This document shows positions 4,277-61,115 of a stretch of DNA of 64,000 bases, piece after piece. This DNA comes from Pedobacter sp. Leaf170 (GTDB taxonomy: Bacteria > Bacteroidota > Bacteroidia > Sphingobacteriales > Sphingobacteriaceae), in NCBI RefSeq assembly GCF_920984665.1, contig NZ_CAKLBP010000003.1:62001-126000 (forward strand), read 5' to 3'. The notes beneath the pieces are model-generated. The model was not told where the DNA came from. It did no database searches and worked only from the letters and a program-made list of their open reading frames with translations. Each line of letters opens with the position of its first letter. Position 1 is the stretch's first letter. The translations under genes were made by a program, and so were the position numbers.

Positions 4277-5230
4277 ATGAAAATTAAGAACGAGACCAAA
4301 GTAGGTATTTTAGCTGCATTCGCCATTGCTTTACTAATTATTGGCTATAACTTTTTAAAGGGCAATTCCATTTTTTCTAGCGAAACTACCCTATTTGCAA
4401 GATACACCAGAGTTGATGGTTTAACCGTTTCTAAACCAATCTTGATTAATGGTTATCAGATTGGAAGGGTTGCGAAATTACAATTAGAGCCAGGCGGAAC
4501 TATATTGGCTACTTTAAGCATCAACAGTAAATATGATATTCCGGAAAACAGTATTGCCCGTTTAGAAGGCACCGACCTTTTGGGTAGCAAAGCGATTGTA
4601 ATGTCGTTAGGTGACTCAAAGAAAATGGCTGAAGATGGTTTTACATTAAATGCAAATGTGGAGAAAGGTTTAATGGAGCAGGTTCAGCCGGTGCAAAAGA
4701 AAGCTGAATTAATTATTGGTAAAATGGATTCTATTTTAACCAGTGTAAACTCTATCTTAAATCCAAATTTTCAGAAAAATGTTGATAAAAGCTTTAGCAG
4801 CATTGCTGGAACCTTAGCATCTTTAGAAACTACATCTAAAAAAGTTGATGGTTTAGTTGGCTCTGAAAGTGCTAGAATTGAAGCCATTTTTAAAAATGTA
4901 GAAGGCATTACTGCCAACTTAAACAACAACAATAAAAAGATTAGCGATATTTTAACGAACATTAATACCGTTACGGATAAATTTGCTGCTGCTAATTTTA
5001 AGCAGACTTTAGATAATGCAAATAATGCTATAGCTGATTTGCAAAGTGTAATTTCTGGAATGAAAGATGGAAAAGGCAGTTTAGGTTTATTGCTTAATGA
5101 CGATAAAATGTACAACAATTTGAACAATGCATCTAAAAACTTAGATGAATTAATGATTGATTTAAAGGCTAATCCTAAACGTTACGTACACTTCTCTGTA
5201 TTTGGAGGCGGTAACAAGAAAGATAAATAA
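4277..5230 (+). CDS. MlaD/MCE-domain lipid transport protein
   Basis: A 317-aa inner-membrane-anchored MCE protein. It has a single N-terminal transmembrane helix (VGILAAFAIALLIIGYNF, about residues 10-27). The MCE domain follows (about 35-115: YTRVDGLTVSKPILINGYQIG and EGTDLLGSKAIVMSLG). A long helical region rich in Asn, Lys and Ser makes up the rest, typical of the coiled segment through which MCE proteins form a lipid tunnel. The family shuttles phospholipids between inner and outer membranes. The usual MlaE permease and MlaF ATPase are not adjacent here. It has its own promoter and a strong terminator. Confidence 0.88.
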   Translation: MKIKNETKVGILAAFAIALLIIGYNFLKGNSIFSSETTLFARYTRVDGLTVSKPILINGYQIGRVAKLQLEPGGTILATLSINSKYDIPENSIARLEGTDLLGSKAIVMSLGDSKKMAEDGFTLNANVEKGLMEQVQPVQKKAELIIGKMDSILTSVNSILNPNFQKNVDKSFSSIAGTLASLETTSKKVDGLVGSESARIEAIFKNVEGITANLNNNNKKISDILTNINTVTDKFAAANFKQTLDNANNAIADLQSVISGMKDGKGSLGLLLNDDKMYNNLNNASKNLDELMIDLKANPKRYVHFSVFGGGNKKDK

Positions 5231-12903: not shown

Positions 12904-13271
12904 CTTATTATGTAAATGATTATGGGCGTAAATGTAAAATTTTTAAAGCACTAATGGCTACAAAATCGTATCATAAAAAATTAAATTTTGTTAAAAATAG
13001 TACCGATTTTAACTAATTCATTATGGTTTTTGTAATAAAACGTTTAACCTACGTTTATATAGATTTTTATAATTTGTAAAGCAATCAAGCAGCACTTAGG
13101 TTAACACAGTCCCGCCATTTACTTCAATCTTTTTGTTATCGCAATTATAAACTTGTCCATTTATTGCAACAAAAAGTATTTACGTTCCTGTCTGGTTTAG
13201 AGAATTTGGTTTTGATAATTCTTTGGGAGGTTTTCTGTTCTCAACGCCTAATCTTCCGTTTTTTACGAAGG
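12904..13271. other. Gene-free spacer between serC and the TonB receptor
   Basis: About 370 bp, AT-rich, with no plausible CDS. It holds the serC promoter region and one copy of the CCCGCC/CTTTTTG repeat (13110-13195). The receptor gene ends at the far side without a clear terminator hairpin. Confidence 0.7.
13110..13195 (+). repeat. Degenerate inverted repeat, CCCGCC...CTTTTTG/CAAAAAG family
   Basis: CCCGCCATTTACTTCAATC leads into TTTTTGTT (13130-13137), which pairs with AACAAAAA near 13168-13175, followed by GTATTTACG. The core is shared with 19450-19567. Confidence 0.5.
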
Positions 13272-23502: not shown

Positions 23503-25290
23503 ATGAAGCATATACGTAATTTTTGCATTATTGCACATATTGACCATGGTAAGAGTACTTTGGCCGATAGGTTATTAGAATATACCGCGACAATTTCGCA
23601 GCGTGAGGCGCAGGCGCAATTGCTCGATAATATGGATTTGGAGCGTGAAAGAGGCATTACTATTAAAAGTCATGCCATACAAATGAACTACAAAGTTGGT
23701 GATATTGAATATAATTTTAACTTAATTGATACACCCGGACACGTAGATTTTTCTTATGAAGTTTCGCGATCTATAGCGGCTTGCGAAGGTGCTTTACTTA
23801 TTGTAGACGCATCGCAAGGCATACAGGCACAAACGATTTCGAACTTATATTTAGCGCTTGAGCACGACCTTGAAATTATACCGATTTTAAATAAAATGGA
23901 TTTGCCTGGGGCGATGCCTGAGGAAGTGAAAGACCAGATTATTGATTTAATTGGCTGTAAACGTGATGATATTATTCCTGCATCGGGTAAAACGGGAATG
24001 GGTATTCCTGATATTATTCAGGCTATTGTAGACCGCGTACCTGCTCCTGTTGGTGAGCCTGAAGCGCCTTTACAAGCTTTAATTTTCGATTCAGTTTTTA
24101 ATTCTTTCAGAGGTATTATTGCTTACTATAAAGTTGTAAACGGAGAGATTAAAAAAGGTGATAAAGTTAAGTTCATCAATACTGGTAAAGAATATTTAGC
24201 TGATGAAGTTGGCATTTTAAAACTTGATATGTCGCCACGTAATGTGGTTAAAACCGGCGATGTAGGCTACATTATTTCGGGCATTAAAGAAGCTAGAGAG
24301 GTTAAAGTTGGTGATACCATTACTACAACCGCAAGACCAGCAGAAGGAGCTATTCAAGGTTTTGAAGAAGTAAAACCAATGGTTTTCGCAGGTATTTATC
24401 CTGTTGATACTGATGAGTTTGAAGAACTTCGCGAAGCGATGCACAAACTGCAATTAAATGATGCCTCTATCGTTTTCGAACCTGAAAGTTCTGCTGCATT
24501 AGGCTTTGGTTTCCGTTGCGGATTTCTTGGAATGTTGCACATGGAGATTATTCAGGAACGTTTGGAGCGTGAATTCGACATGACGGTAATCACTACTGTT
24601 CCTAACGTTTCATACATTGCTCATACAACTAAAGGCGATGAAATTTTCGTTAATAACCCATCAGATTTACCAGATCCAAGTAAGTTAGATTCTGTTGAAG
24701 AACCATATATCAAAGCAAACATTATTACAAAAGCCGATTTTGTCGGTCCTGTTATGTCGCTTTGTATTCAGAAGAGAGGTACAATCGTTAATCAATCTTA
24801 TTTAACATCAGATAGAGTTGAGTTGGTTTTTGAAATGCCAATGGGCGAAATTGTATTTGATTTTTATGATAAACTGAAAACAATTTCAAAAGGTTATGCG
24901 TCTTTTGATTATCATCAGATTGGCTACAGAAAATCAGATTTGGTTCGTTTAGATATGCTGATAAATGATGAGCCAGTTGATGCTTTATCATCATTAATTC
25001 ACCGCAGTAATGCTTACGATTTCGGAAAGAAAATTTGCGAAAAACTGAGAGAGTTAATCCCTCGACAGCAATTCGAAATTAAGATACAGGCATCAATCGG
25101 TGCAAAAGTTATTGCCCGCGAAACGCTTAGTGCTTTACGTAAAGATGTTACGGCTAAATGTTATGGTGGCGATATTTCTCGTAAACGTAAGTTATTAGAG
25201 AAACAGAAAAAAGGTAAAAAACGTATGCGCCAGGTTGGAAACGTAGAAATTCCACAATCTGCGTTTATGGCAGTTTTGAAATTGGATTAA
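23503..25290 (+). CDS. lepA: Elongation factor 4 (LepA)
   Basis: 595 aa translational GTPase that back-translocates or remodels stalled ribosomes. G-motifs: AHIDHGKST (G1, about 10-18), [11 protein letters not shown] (G2), DTPGHVDF (G3) and NKMDLPGA (G4). Domains II, III and V follow, then the LepA-specific C-terminal domain ([38 protein letters not shown]). [19 protein letters not shown] is the canonical N-terminus, fixing the start at 23503 although the promoter is only 7 bp away. Confidence 0.97.
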
Positions 25291-25292
25291 AC

Positions 25293-25372
25293 TAGTATTG
25301 CGTATTGCGATAAGCGTATTGCGATTTGCAATATGCCTTTTGTCTCAATACACAATACGCTATACTCAATAC
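25293..25372. repeat. 7-base-phased word repeat forming a spacer-wide hairpin
   Basis: Six units in strict 7-base phase at 25293-25334 (TAGTATT, GCGTATT, GCGATAA, GCGTATT, GCGATTT, GCAATAT). Four units follow at 25345-25372 (TCAATAC, ACAATAC, GCTATAC, TCAATAC), which are the complement. AGCGTATTG pairs with CAATACGCT and TAGTATTG with CAATACTA. It fills the spacer from just after the lepA stop to three bases before the folD ATG. Confidence 0.75.
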
Positions 25373-25375
25373 TAA

Positions 25376-26257
25376 ATGAAATTACTAGACGGAAAATACG
25401 TATCAGAAAAAGTTAAAGTGCAAATTGCTGAAGAGGCTGCTGATTTTTTGAGTAAGACCGGCAGAAAACCCCATTTAGTTGCCATTTTGGTTGGTAATGA
25501 TGGCGGTAGCGAAACTTATGTTGCCAGCAAGATGAAAAACTGTGAAAAGGTAGGTTTTAAATCTTCGCTTTACAGATATGATAACTCAGTTACTGAAGTA
25601 GAATTACTAGCTAAAATTGAAGAAATTAATCAAGATGCTGACGTTGACGGTTTAATTGTTCAATTACCTTTACCAAAACATATCGACCCTGAAAAAGTTA
25701 CCGAAAAAATTGATTACCGTAAAGATGTTGATGGTTTCCATCCGGTAAATTTGGGTAGAATGATGCGAAATTTACCATGCTTTATTCCTGCTACGCCTTA
25801 TGGCATTTTATTAATGTTGCAAGAATACAATATCGATACTACTGGAAAGCATTGCGTTGTAGTTGGCAGAAGTAATATTGTTGGTAGTCCGATGAGTATT
25901 TTAATGGCTCGTAACGCAAACCCGGGTAATTGTACGGTTACCCTTACGCACTCGCGTACGAAGGATTTAAAAGAGCAAGTTTTACAGGCAGATATTATTA
26001 TTGCAGCAATAGGCAAAAAGAATTTTGTTACTGCTGATATGGTAAAACCTGGAGCGATAATTATTGATGTTGGTATTAACCGCGAAAATTCTACTGATAC
26101 AAAATCTGGCTTTAAACTTTACGGCGATGTCGATTTTGAAAATGTTGCGCCTAAATCATCATACATTACACCAGTGCCGGGTGGTGTTGGTTTAATGACA
26201 ATTGTAGGTTTATTGAAGAATACATTAGCATCGGCTAGAAAAGAAATCTATAATTAG
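25376..26257 (+). CDS. folD: Bifunctional methylenetetrahydrofolate dehydrogenase/cyclohydrolase
   Basis: 293 aa, interconverts 5,10-methylene-, methenyl- and 10-formyl-tetrahydrofolate using NADP. Motifs: [14 protein letters not shown] (catalytic Tyr and Lys), [42 protein letters not shown] (dinucleotide binding) and [12 protein letters not shown]. It sits 85 bp after lepA on the same strand, separated by a repeat-built hairpin that may decouple the two. Confidence 0.96.
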
Positions 26258-31416: not shown

Positions 31417-32229
31417 TTACAAAATTGCTTGTCTGATACGGATTAATTTGCTAAGTGTTTCTTCTAGTAAATCCAAGTGCAACATATTTGCGCCATCAGA
31501 TTTTGCATTTGCCGGGTCGGGATGGGTTTCGATAAACAAACCATCAGCACCAACAGCAATTGCAGCCTTTGCAATTGTAGAAATTAATTCGGGCTTACCA
31601 CCAGTTACGCCGCTACTTTGATTTGGCTGTTGTAAAGAGTGTGTACAATCCATCACAACAGGAACACCAAAACTCTGCATTTCCGGTAAGCCGCGATAAT
31701 CAACTATTAAATCCTGGTAACCAAAAGTGTTTCCTCTATCGGTTAAAATTACTTTATCATTTCCGGCCTCTTTAATTTTTTCTACTGCAAATTTCATTGA
31801 ACCTGCAGATAAAAATTGACCTTTTTTCACATTTACCACCTTACCGGTTTCAGCTGCAGCAATTAACAAATCTGTTTGCCGACAAAGAAAAGCTGGGATT
31901 TGCAAAACATCAACGTAAGCAGCAGCCATAGAAGCTTCATCACTTTCATGAATATCTGTTACAGTTGGCACGCCAAATTCCCTGGCAACTTTTGCCAAAA
32001 TATTCAACGCCTTTTCATCGCCAATGCCAGTAAAAGAACTGCCTTTACTTCTGTTCGCTTTGCGGTAAGAGCCTTTAAAAATGTAAGGAATTTGAAGTTT
32101 ATCCGTAATCGTAATAATTTTTTCTGCAATACGCATGGCGATGTCTTCGCCCTCAATAGCGCAAGGGCCAGCCATTAAAAAGAAATTACCCGAATCTGTA
32201 TTTTTTATATTGTGTAAGTAGTTAAGCAT
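31417..32229 (-). CDS. kdsA: 3-deoxy-8-phosphooctulonate synthase (Kdo-8-P synthase)
   Basis: 270 aa TIM-barrel aldolase joining phosphoenolpyruvate to arabinose-5-P, in Kdo biosynthesis for lipopolysaccharide. Motifs: FLMAGPCAIEGEDIA, FKGSYRKANRSKGSSFTGIG, FLCRQTDLL, NVKKGQFLSAGSM, LTDRGNTFGYQDLIVDYRG, and GLFIETHPDPANAKSDGAN. The arabinose-5-P it needs comes from KdsD, encoded at 34641. Confidence 0.96.
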   Translation of the reverse strand: MLNYLHNIKNTDSGNFFLMAGPCAIEGEDIAMRIAEKIITITDKLQIPYIFKGSYRKANRSKGSSFTGIGDEKALNILAKVAREFGVPTVTDIHESDEASMAAAYVDVLQIPAFLCRQTDLLIAAAETGKVVNVKKGQFLSAGSMKFAVEKIKEAGNDKVILTDRGNTFGYQDLIVDYRGLPEMQSFGVPVVMDCTHSLQQPNQSSGVTGGKPELISTIAKAAIAVGADGLFIETHPDPANAKSDGANMLHLDLLEETLSKLIRIRQAIL

Positions 32230-32251
32230 TTTGATAGGTTATGTAAAATGG

Positions 32252-32355
32252 TAGATGGATGATAGAAAATGGAAGATGTGAGATGGATAATGGAAGATGT
32301 CAGATCGGATAACCGAAAAGACACATCATCCATCTCACATGTACCATCATACATC
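32252..32355. repeat. 7-base-phased word repeat with inverted second block
   Basis: Eight units in strict 7-base phase at 32252-32307 (TAGATGG, ATGATAG, AAAATGG, AAGATGT, GAGATGG, ATAATGG, AAGATGT, CAGATCG). Five units with CATC follow at 32321-32355. The 17-nt arms 32276-32292 and 32324-32340 are inverted repeats with one mismatch. It fills the spacer between kdsA and recQ. Confidence 0.75.
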
Positions 32356-32359
32356 ACAG

Positions 32360-34549
32360 CTAGTTTCCTAGTTCTGACATAAATTTAATTCGCATTAATT
32401 GAATCTCTTCACGGGTGTAATCTGTTTCTCCCAGCTCATTTAGTGCTTCATCAATCGAATCGTTTTCTGCAGCACGGAAGTAATCAAAAACTTCATCCTG
32501 CCTATCATCATCAATCACTTCATCAATAAAATAATTCAAATTTAGTTTGGTACCAGAATTTACAATCGATTCAACTTCTTTCAGAATTTCTTCATAGGTT
32601 ATACCTTTAGAATCTGCAATATCTTCTAATCCAATCTGCCTGTCAATATTTTGGATAATAGATACTTTCATTTGCGATTTATTTGCCTGGGTTTTGATAA
32701 TCAGGTCAATTGGTCGCTCAATGTCGTTATCCTCCACATATTTTTTAATCAGTTCGATAAAAGGACTTCCAAATTTCATAGCCTTACCCGAACCAACACC
32801 AGAAATCTGTTTCAATTCTTCAGAAGTAATTGGATAGTGCGTGCACATTTCTTCTAAAGATGGATCTTGAAAAACTACAAAAGGTGGAACATTTTTTTGC
32901 TTCGCGATTTTCTTACGCAAATCTTTTAGCAGCTGTAGCAAATGAGTATCTAAAGCTCCGGTGCCTTGTTTTACATCGTCTTCATCATCAGCAACATTAG
33001 TTTCTATGAGCTCATTTAAAATAAACTTCAAGCTGTAAGGATTGATGATGAAATCTTTCCCTTGCTTGGTTAATTTTAGTAAACCATAATTATCAATATC
33101 CTTAAAAAGAAAATTATTTAAAACCGCCTGGCGGATAACTGATTTCCAAAGTAACTCTCCATCTTGCTTGCCGATTCCAAATTCAGGCAATTTACTATGC
33201 TCATAAGCGATGGTTTGAGCCGTTTCTAAACCTAAAAATACATTCAGCAAATGTGCATCATCAAATTTTTCTCCAGCGGTATTAATAAATTTTAACAAGG
33301 TTGATAATTGCTCTTCAGCATCAAACTGCTTTTTAGGTTTTTTGCAATTATCGCACATGCAGTTGCAACCGGTTTCATTAAAATTCTCTCCAAAGTAGTG
33401 TAAAATCTGCTTACGGCGACAAACGCCGGACTCGGCATAATCAATTACTTCTTTAAGTATCTGAGTACCAATTTCACGCTCGGCAACTGGTTTATCTTTC
33501 ATAAACTTGGCAAGCTTATCAACATCTTTTTGTGCGTAAAAAGCAATACAAACGCCTTCACCACCATCACGACCAGCTCTGCCGGTTTCCTGATAGTAGC
33601 CTTCCATACTTTTAGGCACATCATGGTGTATAACAAAACGAACATCAGGTTTATCAATCCCCATCCCGAAAGCAATTGTAGCTACAATTACCTCTGCATC
33701 TTCCATCAAAAATTTATCCTGAGTTTCTGCCCGAACTTTCGGCTCTAAGCCAGCATGGTATGGTAAGGCACTAATTCCGTTTAAGTTTAAAGCTTCGGCA
33801 ACTTCTTCTACCTTTTTACGGCTTAAGCAGTAAATAATACCAGATTTACCAGGATTAGATTTGATATATTTAATAATTTCCTTTGTTATATCCCTTTTCG
33901 GGCGGATTTCATAAAATAAATTCGGTCGGTTAAAGGATGATTTAAACAAAGTAGCCTCAGACATGCCAAGGTTTTTCATAATATCTTGCTGAACCTTTGG
34001 AGTAGCTGTAGCTGTTAAAGCAATAATTGGAATGTTATTACCTAATCCGGCAATAACCTGTTTAATTTTTCGGTATTCTGGTCTAAAATCATGCCCCCAT
34101 TCTGAGATACAGTGTGCCTCATCAACAGCAACGAATGAAATTTTTATCAGATTTAAAAACTCAATGTTCTCTTGCTTAGCCAAAGATTCTGGCGCAACAT
34201 ATAATAGTTTGGTCTGCCCGCTTAGCAGGTCAGATTTTACTTGAGTAATTTCAGATTTATTTAGGGATGAATTTAGAAAATGTGCAATACTATCATTTCC
34301 ACCAAATGCTCTTAACTGATCTACCTGATTTTTCATCAAAGCAATTAATGGAGAAATAACAATAGCTGTTCCTTCGCTCATTAAAGCCGGTAATTGATAG
34401 CAAATAGACTTCCCTCCACCCGTTGGCATTATAACAAATGTGTTATTGCCTTCTAAAATATTTGTAATGATCGATTCCTGATCACCTTTGAAATTATCAA
34501 ACCCAAAAAAATTCTGTAGGTTATCAAATAACGACTTTTTCACGTCCAT
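32360..34549 (-). CDS. recQ: ATP-dependent DNA helicase RecQ
   Basis: 729 aa, 3'-5' helicase for recombination repair. Helicase motifs: MPTGGGKSICYQLPAL (I), VDEAHCISEWGHDFRPEY (II plus aromatic loop) and ATIAFGMGIDKPDVRFVIHHDVPKSMEGYYQETGRAGRDG (V-VI). A zinc subdomain (CRRKQILHYFGE...CNCMCDNC), a winged-helix RQC domain, an HRDC domain (KKIAKQKNVPPFVVFQDPSL) and an acidic C-terminal extension follow. ATG 34549 (MDVKKSLFDNLQNFFGF) is preferred over 34588, whose extra 13 residues are not family-like. Confidence 0.94.
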   Translation of the reverse strand: MDVKKSLFDNLQNFFGFDNFKGDQESIITNILEGNNTFVIMPTGGGKSICYQLPALMSEGTAIVISPLIALMKNQVDQLRAFGGNDSIAHFLNSSLNKSEITQVKSDLLSGQTKLLYVAPESLAKQENIEFLNLIKISFVAVDEAHCISEWGHDFRPEYRKIKQVIAGLGNNIPIIALTATATPKVQQDIMKNLGMSEATLFKSSFNRPNLFYEIRPKRDITKEIIKYIKSNPGKSGIIYCLSRKKVEEVAEALNLNGISALPYHAGLEPKVRAETQDKFLMEDAEVIVATIAFGMGIDKPDVRFVIHHDVPKSMEGYYQETGRAGRDGGEGVCIAFYAQKDVDKLAKFMKDKPVAEREIGTQILKEVIDYAESGVCRRKQILHYFGENFNETGCNCMCDNCKKPKKQFDAEEQLSTLLKFINTAGEKFDDAHLLNVFLGLETAQTIAYEHSKLPEFGIGKQDGELLWKSVIRQAVLNNFLFKDIDNYGLLKLTKQGKDFIINPYSLKFILNELIETNVADDEDDVKQGTGALDTHLLQLLKDLRKKIAKQKNVPPFVVFQDPSLEEMCTHYPITSEELKQISGVGSGKAMKFGSPFIELIKKYVEDNDIERPIDLIIKTQANKSQMKVSIIQNIDRQIGLEDIADSKGITYEEILKEVESIVNSGTKLNLNYFIDEVIDDDRQDEVFDYFRAAENDSIDEALNELGETDYTREEIQLMRIKFMSELGN

Positions 34550-34640
34550 TTTGTGTAATAAAATATGCGATGCTATTTTTCTATCCAAAATAACATAATT
34601 TTACAAGAATTTCAATTATTAACAAACAATTTTTTTCTCT

Positions 34641-60783: not shown

Positions 60784-61115
60784 ATTTTATCTTTTTAAAA
60801 AAATTGAAGATTTAGAAAAGGAAATTTCTACAATTATTATCGTTAGTCGGGCTTTGCGCTAAATCTTTTAAAATACATCATAACGGCATGAACAAAGTTG
60901 CTACAATTTTAAAAGGATATCGCTTCAATCCCGTTTAGACGGCTGGGAAAATATAACTATTTGCAGTTGCAAGGCGTTTTACATAGTCCATTAATTTTAA
61001 ACCCGACAAAAGCGGGCATCCCGATAGTTCATCGGGATAAAGCGAATGGCGGGACTAAAATTGCCACAAAGCACTGAATTTTCATTTCCAAAACCTTTTA
61101 ATTATTTTTTATTCC
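60784..61115. other. Gene-free spacer with degenerate repeats
   Basis: About 330 bp between convergent genes. It includes CCCGACAAAAGCGGG and TCCCGATAGTTCATCGGGA (61005-61039) followed by GCGAATGGCGGGACTAAA, part of the GC-rich repeat group, and a GTTAGTCGGGCTTTGCGC fragment at about 60843. No CDS or clear terminator is seen. Confidence 0.6.
61005..61057. repeat. Double-hairpin GC-rich repeat
   Basis: Two adjacent small stems, CCCG-acaaaag-CGGG and TCCCGAT-agttc-ATCGGGA, then GGCGGGACT. Parts recur at 39440 and 13110. Confidence 0.55.

Follow-up and report, generated by a model that had tools for sequence, protein, structure and literature searches.

Intergenic spacers of Pedobacter carry elements composed of tandem, degenerate 7-nt units (heptads), in which 7 is the only period that stands out, the two arms lie head-on and share a common word, the blocks follow a definite polarity, and the layout is kept in orthologous spacers despite the swapping of the words. 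Two such elements, one between recQ and kdsA and the other between lepA and folD, are present in the window, i.e. the whole 64,000-nt stretch of Pedobacter sp. Leaf170 DNA analysed here. The best overall account, to which we give slightly less than even credence, is that they are heptad minisatellites generated by slippage in 7-nt steps, arranged head-on between co-directional genes and able to pair in many registers.

Heptad elements in the recQ-kdsA and lepA-folD spacers

The recQ-kdsA gap (positions 32230-32359, 130 nt) consists mostly of repeats and separates two genes of the minus strand: the upstream recQ (32360..34588; DNA helicase RecQ, TIGR01389, 670 bits, cut-off 640) and the downstream kdsA (31417..32229; 3-deoxy-8-phosphooctulonate synthase, TIGR01362, 384 bits, cut-off 314). 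On the plus strand, a G-rich block of about ten in-phase 7-nt units of the AT-G-K-N-A-G type, designated a class A word (32237..32306), is followed by an intervening stretch (32307..32322), the loop being dependent on the register, and by a C-rich block of five heptads (32323..32357). Read on the transcribed minus strand, the second block becomes the G-rich 5' arm right behind the recQ stop codon, and the first one the C-rich 3' arm immediately upstream of kdsA. The original prediction had placed here eight heptads of the nAGATG[GT] pattern, in phase from 32252. The phase is correct, and four of these units (TAGATGG, ATGATAG, AAAATGG, AAGATGT, GAGATGG, ATAATGG, AAGATGT, CAGATCG) follow the pattern exactly, the other four deviating from it at 1-2 positions; the array, however, begins earlier than proposed, being in phase already from about 32237 (GGTTATG, TAAAATG, GTAGATG and so on). 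The five units of the same period that were said to carry CATC on the opposite side are present (ACATCAT, CCATCTC, ACATGTA, CCATCAT, ACATCAC), with CATC in four and CAT in every one of them. The predicted 17-nt arms with one mismatch were located at 32276-32292 and 32324-32340; the arms of the best ungapped pair are 31 nt apart, and a repeat search of the spacer yielded a 33-nt inverted arm pair at 79% identity.

The best column identity over eight heptads of this spacer is 0.699, compared to a maximum of 0.423 among 300 dinucleotide shuffles, none of which (0/300) reaches the observed value, and at periods 5, 6, 8 and 9 the column identity is no higher than in the shuffles. Lag-7 windows with at least 36 matches out of 60 occur at two places only in the 64 kb, namely in the recQ-kdsA and lepA-folD spacers; among the other lags of 3-15, the same threshold is reached by lag 14 only, at one place, which is again the recQ-kdsA array. 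The second element (25291..25375, plus strand) consists of GTATTGC / CAATACG heptads, a class B word, with an inverted block present, and lies between lepA (23503..25290, plus strand; elongation factor 4, TIGR01393, 986 bits, cut-off 534) and a folD-like gene (25376..26257, plus strand), whose best model, NF010782, scores 463 bits, under the cut-off of 507. At both loci the heptad element fills almost the entire gap from stop to start.

The sense RNA of the recQ-kdsA spacer has a predicted fold of -46.3 kcal/mol (z = -6.7), and the RNA of the lepA-folD spacer one of -29.8 kcal/mol (z -5.9). These strong predicted folds speak for a bidirectional intrinsic terminator or attenuator, in which transcription would be ended or attenuated by a hairpin that pairs in many registers, its 5' arm being of purines and its 3' arm of pyrimidines, and so does the fact that the lepA-folD spacer is one of 8 flagged by a looser terminator script, on its TTTTGTCT run. 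On the other hand, a scan of positions 31900-32700 for a GC-rich hairpin followed directly by a T run returned 0 terminator-like sites, and the element abuts kdsA; a strong terminator between recQ and kdsA was therefore rejected. A sigma-70-type scan, which models a promoter type that is not that of Bacteroidota, gave 3 sites versus 3.3 expected, none of them on the kdsA strand within the spacer.

Several other identities of the recQ-kdsA spacer were considered and rejected. A coding role is at odds with the unit length, as 7 is not a multiple of 3, and with the location of the element between stop and start codons. The units are contiguous 7-mers and not long fixed repeats with unique spacers, as in CRISPR or similar arrays. 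A search of plasmids in the 'distant' mode returned no match to the spacer, which argues against a plasmid-borne element, and a known RNA family was dismissed since no structured family of Rfam matches the spacer at the gathering score. The only Rfam matches above that score elsewhere in the window are two to the Flavo-1 RNA (RF01705), both on the minus strand, at 13104-13202 (43.4 bits) and 60841-60940 (56.5 bits). The word of this spacer lacks GGG and hence has no G-run of the G-quadruplex type in the unit; the AGGGTTT class found elsewhere has one.

Period 7 and block polarity in surveyed spacers

A search for spacers with a lag of 7, of the kind that the original prediction had proposed, reveals that the recQ-kdsA spacer is not unique: a blind survey of 864 kb of the source genome found period-7 blocks in 34/512 spacers. 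Blocks with periods 5, 6, 8, 9, 10 and 11 were found in 5, 6, 6, 1, 1 and 0 spacers, respectively; six units were demanded at every period, so that the longer periods require longer spacers. The genes in the survey are simple ORF calls rather than curated annotation, and the window entered it as four 16-kb pieces, with kdsA cut at 32000, and so the recQ-kdsA spacer is itself absent both from the 34/512 and from the counts of array spacers and of palindromes given below. In seven other Pedobacter genomes, period-7 blocks occur in 25/275 spacers, and those with periods 5, 6, 8, 9, 10 and 11 in 2, 2, 6, 1, 0 and 0. Two further genomes exhibit them in 5/102 (G009) and 12/126 (G058) spacers, with at most 2 for any other period. 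Four other genomes of Bacteroidota gave 3/58, 3/63, 0/49 and 3/63 spacers at period 7, compared to 0, 0, 2 and 2 at period 8 and 1, 0, 0 and 1 at period 6, and none of the 117 spacers of E. coli K-12 contains blocks at any period surveyed. Perfect arrays (at least 3 units, period above 4) follow the same preference: at period 7 the three sequence sets of 864, 794 and 400 kb contain 2, 7 and 2 of them, respectively; each set has at most one at periods 5 and 6, and none at periods 8-13. The longest array has 12 units, and such long perfect heptad arrays suggest recent expansion.

Many different heptad words share the period in the survey blocks, and the words also vary inside the arrays. An AGATG-type pattern with up to 2 mismatches occurs in 28/148 genomes of the phylum (23/83 genera), but its backward control, likewise of period 7, occurs in 22, so that the pattern does not mark AGATG out as a special word phylum-wide. 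At least four tandem copies of TTTAGGG, which we take to be a word resembling the plant telomere repeat, are present in 35/99 Pedobacter genomes, and of its backward control in 0; perfect or near-perfect (TTTAGGG)n arrays adjoin genes of Pedobacter at four loci (L132, near position 4762; L287, near 12723; L288, near 10213; L290, near 4208). A universal AG anchor was also rejected: a conserved AG is found in 26/86 blocks versus 18.7 in a column-permuted null, which is suggestive only; for GT the values are 28 and 14.7. With respect to the type of spacer, arrays were found in 49/618 co-directional, 11/191 convergent and 9/211 divergent ones, and depletion in the divergent spacers is not significant (p 0.08-0.12). 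Outside Pedobacter, spacers upstream of kdsA at two Hymenobacter loci carry heptad words of their own, a near-perfect palindrome of the GTGACAC type (L080) and an array of the ACGACTC type (L092); neither locus has a recQ match beside kdsA.

The blocks are strand-asymmetric, with a mean |GC skew| of 0.60, as against 0.38 for segments drawn at random from the same spacers and 0.25 for spacers other than these, and the asymmetry is oriented with respect to the genes. In co-directional spacers, after omission of blocks with |G-C| under 3, the blocks near the stop codon are G-rich in the sense strand in 20 cases and C-rich in 6, and those near the start codon C-rich in 20 cases and G-rich in 1 (Fisher 7e-7); in convergent spacers there are 8 G versus 3 C on the left side and 0 G versus 6 C on the right side. 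In the small replicate from G009 and G058, the near-start half of this rule is seen (4 C, 1 G) but the near-stop half fails to recur (0 G, 2 C), with a pooled Fisher value of 1e-6. Array spacers barely exceed the controls in the frequency of palindromes: a score of at least 10 is attained in 40/69 versus 321/560 and a score of at least 14 in 21/69 versus 105/560, where many of the control palindromes may be ordinary terminators, and 29/69 array spacers contain no palindrome with a score of at least 10. In the 40 palindromic array spacers the first arm is G-rich in 30, C-rich in 7 and tied in 3, whereas the controls are distributed as 116, 143 and 62; the orthologous elements described below, which are not independent of each other, are G-first in 53/54, with one tie. 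The heptad elements are thus marked by the polarity and the repeated word more than by the presence of a palindrome.

In the 49 co-directional array spacers, the array starts at a median of 4 nt past the stop codon (range to 633) and ends at a median of 7 nt ahead of the next start codon. Such a location at the 3' end of a gene agrees with the terminator or attenuator introduced above, and so does the somewhat lower frequency of canonical terminators in array spacers, which among spacers of at least 40 nt is 8/46 compared to 118/484 in the other co-directional ones and 3/11 compared to 79/168 in the convergent ones. However, an array that reaches so close to the next start would cut off the downstream gene, unless a promoter is located inside. 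Besides, inspection by eye revealed that several arrays (L211, L212, L190, L207) adjoin a separate canonical hairpin followed by a T run, and the palindromes of the controls do not obey the G-first rule. Altogether, we find it unlikely that termination or attenuation is what the elements are for.

Kept layout and swapped words in orthologous spacers

The cross-species comparison covered 30 of the 99 genomes of the genus, namely those whose KdsA matched best; they constitute a biased, closely related subset. The best lag is 7 in 28/30 recQ-kdsA and 28/29 lepA-folD spacers, with z above 3 in 26 and 22, respectively; the lepA-folD gap of G081 was outside this test, and two of three lepA-folD spacers of the CCCC type are also best at lag 7, so that the 'best lag 7' overcounts. 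At recQ-kdsA the words are of the GATG type in 12 genomes and of the GAGAT type in 17, with one spacer decayed. At lepA-folD we found 17 AGTATCA-type, 8 GAGAT-type and 1 GTATTG-type words, 3 spacers with an unrelated CCCCTAGCCCCCT palindrome, and one 944-nt gap; the decayed spacer and the 944-nt gap both belong to G081, which was left unclassed. The classes were called by eye and later checked by motif counts, according to which both halves give one word in 49/54 orthologous elements (28 + 26, the double element of G049 being omitted wherever a single palindrome was required); in 2/5 exceptions one half scored zero. A third orthologous gap, following a gene recognized by eye from its terminal KKLLAEAN, has words of the AGTATC type in two species and one of the GAGAT type in another (L269, L242, L235).

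Word changes, which as a rule affect both arms together, are seen even among sister species, and such species may disagree at one locus and match at the other. Word classes require 9 and 12 changes on the tree at the two loci, compared to means of 10.5 and 11.9 for shuffled classes, and hence track the tree weakly at best. The original prediction, according to which such spacers share the architecture and not the sequence, holds insofar as many words share the period and the head-on layout is kept across most of the 30 species; it has to be qualified in that each word is also dispersed, that the two blocks share a word but no mirrored order of heptads, and that heptamers of Xanthomonas and Nostoc had already been described. 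When the heptads of the 3' half are permuted, the palindrome score stays the same (14.67 observed versus 14.62 permuted, the observed value being higher in 23/54). Therefore, the pairing is register-free and no mirrored copy lies behind it, and we ruled out a palindrome that arose as a mirror copy by recent inverted duplication.

The irrelevance of the heptad order, with the word and the period being what matters, would also be compatible with arrays to which an oligomeric protein binds, on RNA or DNA, in steps of 7 nt, with a separate paralogue for each word. The direction rule of the blocks and the retention of the layout in orthologues could likewise be invoked for this reading. Nonetheless, the words are very many and vary within arrays, and among the alternatives discussed here we grant this one the smallest chance.

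Some features of the orthologous spacers resemble those of mobile DNA. In principle, small MITE-like palindrome families, one per word, could insert after stop codons and replace each other. Searched against its own genome, the recQ-kdsA spacer gives 13 matches at E <= 0.001, including itself once per strand. For elements of two other word classes, a search of eight genomes revealed paralogues of almost full length, 72-79% identical, in several of them; matches for these classes are present in 5/8 and 6/8 genomes, orthologues included. The recQ-kdsA spacer of G049 (L018) and that of L047, records that may represent the same or close species, contain two complete heptad palindromes in tandem, possibly an intermediate of replacement. 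In the lepA-folD spacers of G071 (L175), G031 (L178) and G041 (L186), the heptads give way to the other palindrome, CCCCTAGCCCCCT ... AGGGGATTTA, in a spacer of 123 nt. The paralogues, the tandem pair and the foreign palindrome, together with the scatter of the word classes over the tree, would all suit mobile families. However, there is no fixed sequence, as heptad order, number and word vary and the order is unconstrained between the arms; there are also arrays with a single side, and other words form perfect 7-mer arrays; and the plasmid search was negative. A fixed MITE or REP-like sequence with defined ends was rejected on account of the variable ends and heptad order and of the 72-79% identity of paralogues, and so was a single dispersed element, in view of the many words; accordingly, the recQ-kdsA spacer is not a decayed copy of one dispersed element of fixed sequence, the outcome that would have spoken against the original prediction. 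We consider mobile palindromes rather improbable as the source of the elements.

Alternatively, each locus may have a set of two or three old alleles, the words, which homologous recombination passes from one species to another. Among 13 chosen pairs, some same-class spacers of distant species (G083-G088, G007-G083, G009-G051) have loops in common and are 93-98% identical, i.e. more similar than the flanking coding DNA. Furthermore, G083 and G030, which have different words, are similar at 0.74-0.88 in recQ and at 0.93-0.97 in the first five kdsA windows (of about 140 nt), the jump occurring exactly at the spacer, as a breakpoint there would give; recombination at this site is possible. Against this scenario, in the other pairs examined the similarity of the coding DNA neither rises nor falls clearly at the spacer, and the near flank (400 nt beside the spacer) is not superior to the remainder of the genes as a predictor of the recQ-kdsA word: the nearest relative shares the word in 17/29 cases by the former and in 20/29 by the latter, with G081 omitted. 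Exchange of old alleles thus appears to us a minor prospect, on a par with that of the terminator. For pairs with third-position divergence up to 0.36, the mean divergence of same-class spacers is 0.17-0.30 without gaps, compared to 0.27-0.34 at third codon positions; with gaps counted, the spacers fall under the third-position divergence in 42/106 pairs.

The distance between recQ and kdsA is 0-38 nt in 26/37 named relatives with a measurable gap (of 80 named loci, 41, L039-L079, were examined, four of them without a recQ-kdsA gap). The simplest reading is therefore that the heptad element was added to a tightly spaced gene pair. Transcription must then pass through it, unless it contains a promoter; we regard such read-through as probable.

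Origin, putative role and relation to known heptamers

Two tandem arrays of one degenerate 7-nt word are placed head-on between co-directional genes, the G-rich strand first, and we propose that replication slippage, or template switching from arm to arm, favouring a 7-nt step may build the arrays and keep them homogeneous. The repeated words would then let the transcript pair in many registers, giving rise to a putative intercistronic hairpin through which RNA polymerase would read. A hairpin of this kind would most plausibly modulate the processing or stability of the mRNA and the coupling of the two genes, and less plausibly provide a specific binding site or terminate transcription strongly.

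Slippage as the origin of the arrays is the part of this proposal that we consider somewhat more likely than not. In close same-class orthologous spacers, gap lengths peak at 7 (21, versus 7 at length 6 and 9 at length 8) and at 14 (13, versus 5 and 1), though one-base gaps are the commonest (84) and merging of gaps at the same place shrinks the peaks to 10 (versus 5 and 7) and 4 (versus 2 and 1). Slippage alone does not explain the joint switch of the word in both arms, the G-rich block being first, or the weak tracking of the tree by the word, and same-class spacers that are closer to each other than the flanking coding DNA are not expected from simple neutral slippage. A selected role for the putative hairpin, as opposed to a tolerated by-product, is doubtful in our opinion, the more so since palindromes are scarcely enriched in array spacers. 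The arm mismatches in the sense strand provide no clear sign of RNA-level selection on pairing, with G.U versus A.C counts of 12 versus 18 in the survey set and 62 versus 44 in the orthologous set, in which the loci are correlated. It is tempting, if far-fetched at present, to speculate that Bacteroidota possess an active, word-agnostic process with a 7-nt step, either polymerase slippage combined with copying from one arm to the other or a dedicated enzyme, by which palindromes between cistrons are rewritten in place, such that the period, the head-on layout and the G-first polarity are inherited and the word is exchanged in both arms simultaneously.

Tandem heptads are known from other bacteria. 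The STRR sequences of cyanobacteria are heptanucleotide tandem repeats, as are the elements of Pedobacter, but their words are exact, and we know of no paired inverted block in them. REP and BIME sequences are dispersed extragenic palindromes, REPs being small with a fixed tag; the Pedobacter elements are also dispersed extragenic palindromes, but with arms made of degenerate tandem heptads.

The closest likeness is to the G-rich heptameric repeats GGGAATC of Xanthomonas and GGGGA(C/T)T of Nostoc, which the available portion of the source describes as degenerate, intergenic 7-nt units with function not known; heptanucleotides of Calothrix are mentioned there as well (PMC4692102). Those of Xanthomonas lie near the end of the upstream ORF, are paired head-on across the two strands in 70 and 75 cases and follow the same coding-strand rule (PMC4692102). 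Heptamer length and sequence vary between related species, and the same portion of the paper relays an earlier idea that heptamers arise via polymerase slippage tied to the polymerase footprint (PMC4692102). By the tandem 7-nt unit, the head-on pairs and the G-rich strand toward the gene end, the Pedobacter elements belong with these intergenic heptameric simple-sequence repeats. They differ in that the words studied in Xanthomonas and Nostoc, as presented in that portion, are of one G-quadruplex type per genome (PMC4692102), whereas those of Pedobacter are many, mostly without G-runs, and replaced in orthologous spacers. Intergenic direct repeats of TAACTGA, also a tandem 7-nt unit, have been reported in Beggiatoaceae, Cyanobacteria and five Bacteroidetes, and Gramella forsetii and A. 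sublithincola are mentioned as having other direct repeats of heptamers between genes (PMC4679880). Unlike in Pedobacter, TAACTGA is one exact word, which in the main genome mostly precedes start codons, and the available portion of the source does not report head-on pairing (PMC4679880). Beyond these two papers, we found no description of the heptad elements of Pedobacter or other Bacteroidetes among the open-licence papers listed, as judged by titles and the beginnings of abstracts. Heptamers per se are thus known, and what is new, as far as could be seen, is the swapping of words within a kept layout, i.e. head-on heptad elements with multiple words.

As regards the over-representation of 7-nt repeats in bacteria, a genus that keeps the step and the layout but swaps the word offers a natural test of mutation bias versus selection. 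Our results also suggest that, in these bacteria, long stretches of pairing-prone RNA are often wedged between apparently co-transcribed genes.
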